64,000 nucleotides of DNA from NCBI GenBank assembly GCA_016278505.1, contig JADQBQ010000001.1:248001-312000 (forward strand), in the 5' to 3' direction. Below the pieces are notes generated by a model, which searched no databases, was not told the origin of the DNA, and was given only the letters and a program-made list of their open reading frames with translations. This stretch comes from Clostridiales bacterium. GTDB lineage: Bacteria; Bacillota; Desulfotomaculia; Desulfotomaculales; VENG01. Shown here one piece after another: positions 9,836-61,842 of the stretch (its first letter is position 1; every line of letters starts with the position of its first letter). The position numbers and the translations under genes were made by a program.

Positions 9836-9843
9836 GCTTATAG

Positions 9844-9893
9844 GGGGGACAGGCACCTTTTTAAATTTTAAAAAGGTGCCTGTCCCCCTTTTT
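9844..9893 (+). repeat. GGGGACAGGC-type long hairpin, copy 1; also terminator-like
   Basis: Arms 9844-9862 and 9870-9888 are perfect 19-base reverse complements (outer part GGGGGACAGGCACC) around AAATTTT, followed by TTTTT. A second copy with the same outer arm but a different inner part lies at 14923-14974. The pair frames the divIB-ftsZ cluster. Such arms are common in REP-like palindromes; here it probably also ends the activator transcript. Confidence 0.8.
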
Positions 9894-14922: not shown

Positions 14923-14974
14923 AAAAGGGGACAGGCTACTTTTTTGTATTTGAAAAAGTAGCCTGTCCCCTTTT
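14923..14974 (+). repeat. GGGGACAGGC-type long hairpin, copy 2; terminator of ftsZ
   Basis: Arms 14923-14944 and 14953-14974 pair over 22 bases (AAAAGGGGACAGGCTAC outward) and end in TTTT. The outer arm is shared with the copy at 9844, the inner part is not. It lies 25 bases after the ftsZ stop. The rest of the 329-base gap up to spoIIGA holds the spoIIG promoter region. Confidence 0.8.
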
Positions 14975-16174: not shown

Positions 16175-16203
16175 CGGGGACATTCCCCGAAGGGGTGTGC
16201 CCC
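16175..16203 (+). other. Two short G/C hairpins between spoIIGA and sigE
   Basis: CGGGG-ACATT-CCCCG (16175-16189) is followed by GGGG-TGTG-CCCC (16192-16203) and CTTTCCTTATT. Could be a weak attenuator balancing protease and sigma-factor expression, or a degenerate relative of the GGGGACAGGC hairpins. Confidence 0.45.
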
Positions 16204-16231
16204 CTTTCCTTATTGGTAGGGAGGGAAAGAT

Positions 16232-42447: not shown

Positions 42448-42476
42448 TTGACGCGAGAATGGCTTTTGCATATAAT
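42448..42476 (+). promoter_or_regulatory. Sigma-A promoter of the ileS leader
   Basis: TTGACG (42448-42453), 17 bases, TATAAT (42471-42476). Transcription from here (about 42483) would pass through both noncoding repeats before the T-box. Confidence 0.75.
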
Positions 42477-42494: not shown

Positions 42495-42598
42495 ATCTTC
42501 GCACAGCCTGTAAGGGGGTCAACAGGCTGTAAGCTCGAAATAAGTGCGACTAAGGTTCAGATGGGGTGAAAACCCCACCTGAACCAAGTCTTCTTTAT
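42495..42598 (+). repeat. Structured noncoding repeat, copy A
   Basis: Unit begins ATCTTCGCACAGCCTGTAAG and ends AAGTCTTCTTTAT. Nested stems: CGCAC (42500) with GTGCG (42544), AGCCTGT with ACAGGCT inside it, and then an extended hairpin GACT..GGTTCAG.TGGGGT with ACCCCA.CTGAACC..AGTC closed by a GAAA-like loop. No ORF. Near-identical to copy B except for its short apical loop. Confidence 0.8.
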
Positions 42599-42780
42599 CT
42601 TCGCACAGCCTGTAAGACCCCGACTTCGCATAAGGAAAGAGGACACCCTGCTGAAGCTTGGGTATTTCTCTAGGACAGGAATGTCCCCAACTAATGGGAT
42701 CAACAGGCTGTAAGCTCGAAATAAGTGCGACTAAGGTTCAGATGGGGTGAAAACCCCACCTGAACCAAGTCTTCTTTATA
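42597..42780 (+). repeat. Structured noncoding repeat, copy B, with enlarged apical loop
   Basis: Same flanks and stems as copy A but about 80 more bases between AGCCTGT and ACAGGCT (roughly 42621-42704), holding its own G/C-rich segments (ACCCCGACTTCG, GGACAGGAATGTCCCC). Identity outside the insert is essentially complete, which argues for recent duplication or selection on the RNA. Confidence 0.8.
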
Positions 42781-42784
42781 TAAT

Positions 42785-43027
42785 AAGTCGCAAATTGCCT
42801 GTGAACGGGGCGAGTACACTGGCAAACCTTTTTAGAGAGCCCGGACAAGGTGCAAGCCGGGTAAGGAATCCAGTGGAATATCACCCGGGAGGTGTCGGCT
42901 GAAATTCAGTAAGCCGGCCGGTAACCGCCGTTAAGGGTATATGAGGGGGCAGATCTGATCTTTGTTTCTGTCCATTAGGGTGGTACCGCGGGAGAATTAG
43001 CCCGCCCCTTGTGGGGCGGGCTTTTTA
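42785..43027 (+). promoter_or_regulatory. T-box riboswitch with isoleucine specifier, controls ileS
   Basis: Stem I with the AGAGAG bulge region (about 42831-42836), specifier ATC at 42880-42882 in GGAATATCACC, the T-box sequence AGGGTGGTACCGCG at 42977-42990, and a terminator AGCCCGCCCC/GGGGCGGGCT with T run at 42999-43027. Uncharged tRNA-Ile would stabilise the antiterminator and allow ileS expression. Confidence 0.95.
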
Positions 43028-51075: not shown

Positions 51076-51123
51076 ATCTTCGCACAGCCTGTAAGAACCC
51101 AACCTGAACCAAGTCTTCTTTAT
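51076..51123 (+). repeat. Structured noncoding repeat, copy C, internally deleted
   Basis: Starts ATCTTCGCACAGCCTGTAAG like copies A and B and ends CCTGAACCAAGTCTTC plus TTTAT, but the middle 60 or more bases are gone, removing both main stems. Confidence 0.7.
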
Positions 51124-51604: not shown

Positions 51605-51997
51605 CTTGCCACCAATTTTAGTCTTAAGTACGGTGGGTAGTCGCTGCTTGCTGAAAAATGCAGGTAGAGGAAAGTCGAGACACGTACAGTATTTAGGCTG
51701 TGCCTAAATACTGTTAAAACGGTGCCCGGCGTAAGCCGGGGCAGGGTGACCTGACGACGGTGAAAAGAGCCTTCCGGGTTCTTAGTAGCCATAAAGTGCC
51801 ACAGAAACTAGGTCTTCTGGCAACAGAAGAGTGGAACCGGTAAACTCCACCAACGTGCAACCCAAATAGGCGGCCTTGAGCCGCGGGTAGGGGCACCCCG
51901 AAAAGGGGGGGGAAGCTATATTTTTTATGGTTTTCTCAGATAGATGGCTACCTTCAACAGAATCTCGCTTACAGCTGTACTTCTGGCTGGTGGCAAG
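51605..51997 (+). ncRNA. rnpB: RNase P RNA, type A-like
   Basis: Catalytic RNA that trims tRNA 5' ends. Conserved blocks: GAGGAAAGTC, GTGCCACAGAAACT, GGTAAACTCCACC, AGATAGATGGCTACC and ACAGAAT followed by GCTTAC near the 3' end. Ends pair as P1: CTTGCCACCA (51605-51614) with TGGTGGCAAG (51988-51997), then AAGTAC with GTACTT. Size of about 393 nt is usual. Short ORFs in this interval are spurious. Confidence 0.95.
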
Positions 51998-61621: not shown

Positions 61622-61842
61622 GTGTTAAGCTAGTCAAATGCTTCGGATAAGGATTACTTATCCTGCCGTGTGCGACTGCTTGTCAGTTTTTCAACCACGG
61701 ATGTAATACGGGAGCCCCAGGTTCATAAGTAGATGACAGGCCACCTGCGGGTGGAAGTCAAAAGCTTGTGACCAGGCACCCACCTGGGAGAGGTGGGTTT
61801 GAAAAAACGATGAGTGACGGCACGGTGGGGCAGTTATCAAAA
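61622..61842 (+). ncRNA. Structured noncoding RNA, candidate 6S (SsrS) or raiA-motif RNA
   Basis: About 220 nt between an extended -10 promoter and a strong terminator, without an ORF. Possible pairs: CCTGCCGTG with CACGGTGGGG near the ends, GTTTTTCAA with TTTGAAAAAAC inside, local hairpins GGATAAG/CTTATCC, CCACC-TGCG-GGTGG and CCCACCT/AGGTGGG. CCTGCCGTGTGCGAC resembles the 5' closing region of 6S RNAs; the dense distinctive unpaired sequence would also fit raiA-type RNA. Identity of the family is unsettled. Confidence 0.65.

Follow-up and report, generated by a model that had tools for sequence, protein, structure and literature searches.

Small non-coding mobile elements that insert without target duplication are known, among them the palindrome-associated transposable elements (PATEs) and the bcr1 repeats; the enzymes that move them and the rules they follow are mostly unclear. 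PATEs, relatives of IS200/IS605 described from Haloquadratum walsbyi, have no terminal inverted repeats, carry palindromes near their ends, cause no target duplication and are too short to encode a transposase; other small repeats (SMR-A) enter their palindromes, and terminal-only copies arise through repeat-mediated deletion of the core (PMC3119063). Members of IS200/IS605 such as IS608 and ISDra2 insert 3' to a short host sequence that is kept as their left flank, have a similar right-end sequence and subterminal hairpins, generate no duplication and are biased towards the lagging-strand template (PMC5934647, PMC6006769). Where hairpins stand near both ends, insertion is precise and follows a short host sequence, the right end resembles that sequence and duplication is absent, these traits together form the signature of single-strand transposition by Y1/HUH transposases (PMC6006769, PMC5934647). 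Here we describe an element with these PATE-like and IS200/IS605-like traits from a 64,000-nucleotide stretch of a Clostridiales bacterium of the order Desulfotomaculales (contig JADQBQ010000001.1, positions 248,001 to 312,000; hereafter the window). It is near certain to be mobile, and its family is apparently undescribed, as a literature search for a described Desulfotomaculum repeat returned nothing.

To assess mobility, the sequence flanking copies in Desulfotruncus arcticus DSM 17038 was compared with parts of the genome of D. alcoholivorax. Nine orthologous sites are filled in D. arcticus and empty in D. alcoholivorax, with flanks 76-91% identical, and there is one reciprocal case. In one example the filled site reads GCGATTTAAT, followed by the element (CTCG...CTTCTTTAT) and then TGGAGGTT, and the empty site reads GCGATTTAATTGGAGGTT. 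Insertion is precise, 3' to host TTNA and usually before T, and the nine empty sites reveal neither target duplication nor loss beyond the small differences ordinary between species. Across 78 clean copies the target carries T at -4 in 66, T at -3 in 75, T at -2 in 55 (G in 15) and A at -1 in 77; on the downstream side, T occupies +1 in 74 and +2 in 53. The right end of the element is fixed at TTTA (CTTA(TA) in type III, one of three subfamilies). Since the left side varies and the right side is constant, this TTTA belongs to the element and is not a target duplication. One junction base is ambiguous, element and flank both usually being T, and the site L126/L259, where the flank is C, favours an element that starts with T and ends with TTTA. 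Because its own right-end TTTA rebuilds the target at each insertion, the element can form tandem copies such as A and B of the window.

Three copies lie in the window, and their exact ends were fixed against other copies and empty sites:

42496..42597, plus strand: copy A, type I, 102 nucleotides, with a short loop in hairpin P1; host target ATTGA^
42533..42554, plus strand: core of copy A, almost invariant (CTCGAAATAAGTGCGACTAAGG), flanked by hairpins P1 and P2 (position +/- 1-2 bases)
42598..42778, plus strand: copy B, type I, 181 nucleotides, directly 3' of the TTTA right end of copy A
42624..42697, plus strand: nested REP-like hairpin repeat CGCATAAGGAAAGAGGACACC...GGACAGGAATGTCCCCAACTAATGG in P1 of copy B (limits approximate)
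42714..42735, plus strand: invariant core CTCGAAATAAGTGCGACTAAGG in copy B (position +/- 1-2 bases)
51077..51122, plus strand: copy C, terminal-only remnant, 46 nucleotides

A first-pass annotation, made from the letters of the window, had recognized A and B as tandem repeats and C as a deleted third copy, and had seen no terminal inverted repeat and no transposase inside. Our analysis agrees on each of these points and refines the boundaries to those listed. A and B are head-to-tail direct copies that share 88 nucleotides at 98% identity and a 23-nucleotide left part, the first base of B following immediately on the terminal TTTA of A. Both fold far more stably than shuffled sequence (z = -4.9 for A, -5.4 for B). 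In copy C the distal half of P1, the whole core and the greater part of P2 are gone, and the breakpoint carries an ACCC motif; this copy lies about 500 bases before an RNase P class B RNA (51629-51976).

The element is about 120 nucleotides long, encodes no protein and runs from 5'-TC(T)TCG to CTTCTTTA-3'. Its plan is common to three subfamilies and comprises P1, an almost invariant core of 22 nucleotides (CTCGAANTAAGTNCGN(N)CTAAGG), P2, whose 3' foot stands about a dozen bases before the right end, and the tail that fills this distance. Type I, to which the window copies belong, reads TCTTCGCACAGCCTGT...ACAGGCTGTAAG, and type II reads TCTCGTTAACCGCCGCTAAG...GCGGCGATAAA. Type III (BRH_c4b, Desulfocucumis) reads TCTCGCTAACAGCCTGT...ACAGGCTGTAAAG, with core CTCGAACTAAGTTCGCTCTAAGG and right end GGCTCACTTA(TA); nearly all of its copies (L028, L030, L073 and others) are followed by the triplet TAT, owing to which the exact right boundary of this subfamily is ambiguous. 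Strong covariation across subfamilies is seen in both hairpins and in a short GAC/GTC helix that lies outside P2: 98.1% of cells are paired and 10 of 15 pairs have changed on both sides, a level reached in 0 of 500 shuffles, and both-side changes occupy 71 cells against 20.9 in shuffles. Sliding the partners destroys the signal. Two of the three helices in the first-pass annotation, AGCCTGT/ACAGGCT and GGTTCAG/CTGAACC, are thus real and covarying. The third, CGCAC/GTGCG, is not conserved: it is specific to type I, types II and III have CGTTAAC or CGCTAAC replacing CGCAC, and the RNAalifold consensus leaves the pair unused. No Rfam family matched the element at gathering or relaxed thresholds. 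Loss of the left hairpin is possible, as two copies have no P1 at all (L172 and L012, TTTATCTC...CTCGAAATAAG).

The extra bases of copy B do not represent free variation of a long loop; they are a second, independent hairpin repeat, AAGGAAAGGGGACACACC...GGAATGTCCCC. This repeat also stands alone in the source genome (L016, L017), has a degenerate copy in the window (16176-16211, minus strand) and, in copies of type I as well as type II, occupies one identical position within P1; a related repeat is nested in P2 of several copies of both types. The idea of variable cargo in the loops therefore holds, the cargo being a hairpin repeat nested in P1 or P2, and a second repeat thus travels inside the hairpins of the element. 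Because the same composite occurs at several loci, composites themselves have moved or recombined. The cargo is of the general REP/BIME/REPIN kind, and none of its copies in the source genome lies within 1.5 kb of a RAYT gene. REP-like hairpins of the GGGGACA...TGTCCCC kind occur at 9843-9887, 14927-14970 and 16176-16211 of the window, the last being the type nested in B. Remnants like C lack their centre and have short CCC-rich motifs at the breakpoint, and three others (L008, L011, L013) have lost P1 between CTGTAAG repeats. Judging by these junctions, copy C is the product of deletion between short repeats.

BLAST finds 23 matches in the source genome (3.92 Mb), and a covariance model derived from 37 diverse copies finds 18, which puts the number of copies there at about 18. 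Copies do occur in relatives, with stem substitutions that preserve pairing: of the 113 genomes sampled from the order, 22 contain the family by the same model, and 10 of the 55 genera are represented. Beyond the order, the distribution rests on a core-pattern scan of the GTDB set, which among the matches listed gave more than 113 places, nearly all in Desulfotomaculum relatives and most in D. arcticus; a few are in metagenome-assembled genomes labelled only Actinobacteria, Bacillota or Clostridia and stay unplaced. No match to the core pattern was found in the viral contigs scanned. In D. arcticus the right end occurs at least 132 times against 0 in the control, far beyond chance, and the left end 91 times as type II (control 3) and 39 times as type I (control 0). 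Several copies are 100% identical; the high count and the identical copies indicate recent spread to high copy number. The copies stand in differing genomic contexts, and genomes of this one order carry anything from 0 to more than 130 of them. The mechanism is directly testable, since the boundaries are nearly exact, the target is defined, the three subfamilies show compensatory changes, more than 100 copies are closely similar and two named type strains offer many empty sites at orthologous positions.

We propose, as the somewhat more probable reading, a PATE-like element that is non-autonomous and depends on a single-strand Y1/HUH transposase acting in trans; the target pattern and the missing duplication speak for this. 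In our view it works like a PATE, although we do not class it as one. The element would move as folded single-stranded DNA, and a Y1/HUH transposase of IS200/IS605 or RAYT type would cut and join it in trans, as proposed for PATEs. Insertion takes place 3' to TTNA without duplication, the right-end TTTA restoring the target. The loops of P1 and P2 are seemingly dispensable for mobility, since versions with a nested repeat in either loop exist at several loci, and old copies shrink by deletion between short direct repeats. The likeness to PATEs extends to the entry of other repeats into the palindromes and to terminal-only copies. A possible link to resident transposons comes from the apex of type II P1, which has a 14-mer (GACTCCCGCCTCTA) and a hairpin in common with resident IS605-type left ends (L208, L055). 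Within 1.88 Mb of loci the 11-mer ACTCCCGCCTC occurs only in the element and in four hairpins resembling IS605-type left ends, and L208 and L055 also match the covariance model, with E of about 3e-5 to 5e-5. Separately, short sequences at two loci in D. alcoholivorax, L271 and L187 (GCCCAGAGGACTCCCGCC...GGCGGGAG), look like terminal-only IS605-type remnants, and no transposase was seen in them. The strand of insertion also fits: 54 of 80 copies in D. arcticus have the element strand on the G-rich side (p = 0.002), as insertion into the lagging-strand template would produce (IS608/ISDra2: PMC6006769). Y1_Tnp genes are present in all 22 element-bearing genomes, compared with 96 of 113 overall. 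As to the enzyme, five element-rich genomes (G047, G059, G060, G027, G030) appear to have only weaker Y1 matches that by their scores are of RAYT kind, protein lengths having been read for some genomes only; this makes a RAYT-type protein a second candidate.

Several observations weigh against this proposal. Y1 genes are common in the order, which makes their association with the element weak. Co-orientation with the downstream gene (45 of 70 copies, p = 0.02) offers another explanation of the strand bias. No copy with an open reading frame between its ends was found among the D. arcticus ends paired or fetched (left ends, 91 of type II and 39 of type I; right ends, a list of about 100 of the at least 132, which covers part of those with 1-2 mismatches); the ends examined all came from elements shorter than 300 nucleotides or from truncated copies. 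The right end of the element is at no Y1_Tnp locus of the source genome, D. arcticus or D. alcoholivorax. The palindromes of one PATE resemble each other and those of IS605-type transposons, whereas P1 and P2 are unlike in sequence, and likeness to the end of a resident IS605-type element is confined to the P1 apex of type II. Unlike IS200/IS605, the element has no tnpA or tnpB inside, and P1 begins so close to the left cut, only a few bases away, that an IS608-type guide would not fit 5' of its foot. Nor is guide pairing demonstrable: complementarity between AATAAG of the core and TTTATT of the target is not significant, 56-63% of shuffles having such a complement, and we dropped it as evidence. 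Finally, the most conserved part is the core between the hairpins and not the hairpins themselves.

That last observation is the starting point of an alternative that we regard as unlikely, although worth stating, in which this would be the first described member of a new class. Its machinery would recognize the conserved single-stranded core and not the two freely variable hairpins, and its enzyme would be other than an IS200/IS605-type TnpA, possibly a protein of RAYT type, given the element-rich genomes with seemingly only RAYT-like Y1 genes. The REP, BIME and REPIN repeats of RAYT (TnpA_REP) systems likewise are intergenic hairpin repeats with a possible Y1 enzyme. Those differ from our element, which has two unlike hairpins and a conserved core, inserts at TTNA and lacks a GT[AG]G foot. 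Eukaryotic Helitrons start with 5'-TC, insert between A and T without duplication and carry a hairpin shortly before the 3' end, as does our element; they differ in ending with CTRR in place of TTTA (CTTA(TA) in type III), and our element is bacterial and has no RepHel gene.

About equally doubtful is a bcr1-like, TTTAT-associated repeat that moves in the manner of site-specific recombination without a Y1 transposase. The bcr1/bcr repeats of the Bacillus cereus group are short, non-coding, interspersed and TTTAT-linked, with no known enzyme, and are often transcribed within untranslated regions (PMC6542083, PMC3446304). Our element, too, ends in TTTA(T) and has no partner that we could find. 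Compared by description only, bcr1 differs in belonging to another host order (Bacillus) and in its fixed TTTAT, against TTNA here. Any base is tolerated at -2 of the target, the empty sites show plainly that the left side is of host origin, and there is no linked recombinase candidate.

The setting of copies A and B raises the question of function, as they lie in the leader of ileS:

42448..42476, plus strand: match to a sigma-70-type promoter, TTGACG-17-TATAAT, preceding the leader of ileS (consensus match only)
42792..43012, plus strand: T-box leader of ileS, directly after copy B

A mobile element is thus lodged in the leader of an essential gene, just downstream of the promoter match and upstream of the T-box, and A and B are probably transcribed together with ileS. 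P2 was not flagged by a terminator scan and is unlikely to be an efficient terminator here, where, between promoter and gene, it would be expected to harm ileS. The first-pass annotation had named a selected RNA as one of two readings. Selection on structure stands; the RNA role finds no support in that form, as the data fit mobile DNA whose folded strand matters and are equally compatible with folding as RNA or as single-stranded DNA. That the family is primarily a functional RNA (acting, for example, in leaders or on mRNA stability), that it spread only incidentally and that copies A and B regulate ileS seems to us improbable. In favour of this are the strong covariation, the G-U pairs that the element strand forms (in type III, UG at columns 84/145), the position between promoter match and T-box, and partial co-orientation with downstream genes. 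Folding as single-stranded DNA, however, accounts for the covariation equally well, and the differing contexts and widely varying copy number described above speak against it. Moreover, the orthologous ileS leaders do without the element: in D. arcticus promoter-like sequence adjoins the T-box with nothing between them, and D. alcoholivorax has a different repeat there instead. A and B are therefore insertions. The D. alcoholivorax repeat (L328) is a palindromic interspersed repeat, CAGAATTCAGTAGTCAGAATTC...CTGACTCCTGA, also seen at L274, elsewhere in D. arcticus.

Less probable still is RNA-mediated movement, in which an RNA copy would be integrated by a reverse transcriptase or an RNA-guided machine that recognizes the core. 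The conservation of the core and the RNA-like character of the element are compatible with it, and some retroelements also insert without target duplication. No group II intron features were seen (no GTGYG start), and the Rfam search described above likewise argues against it. An ordinary, decayed miniature inverted-repeat transposable element with short terminal inverted repeats and target duplication would match the small, non-coding, intergenic and high-copy character of the family, but it is refuted by the nine empty sites without duplication; the lack of a terminal inverted repeat and the asymmetric ends of all subfamilies also speak against it.

Elsewhere in the window we note a 6S RNA at 61657-61835 and, at 1513-2476 on the minus strand, a CRISPR array of 15 repeats that matches CRISPR-DR2.
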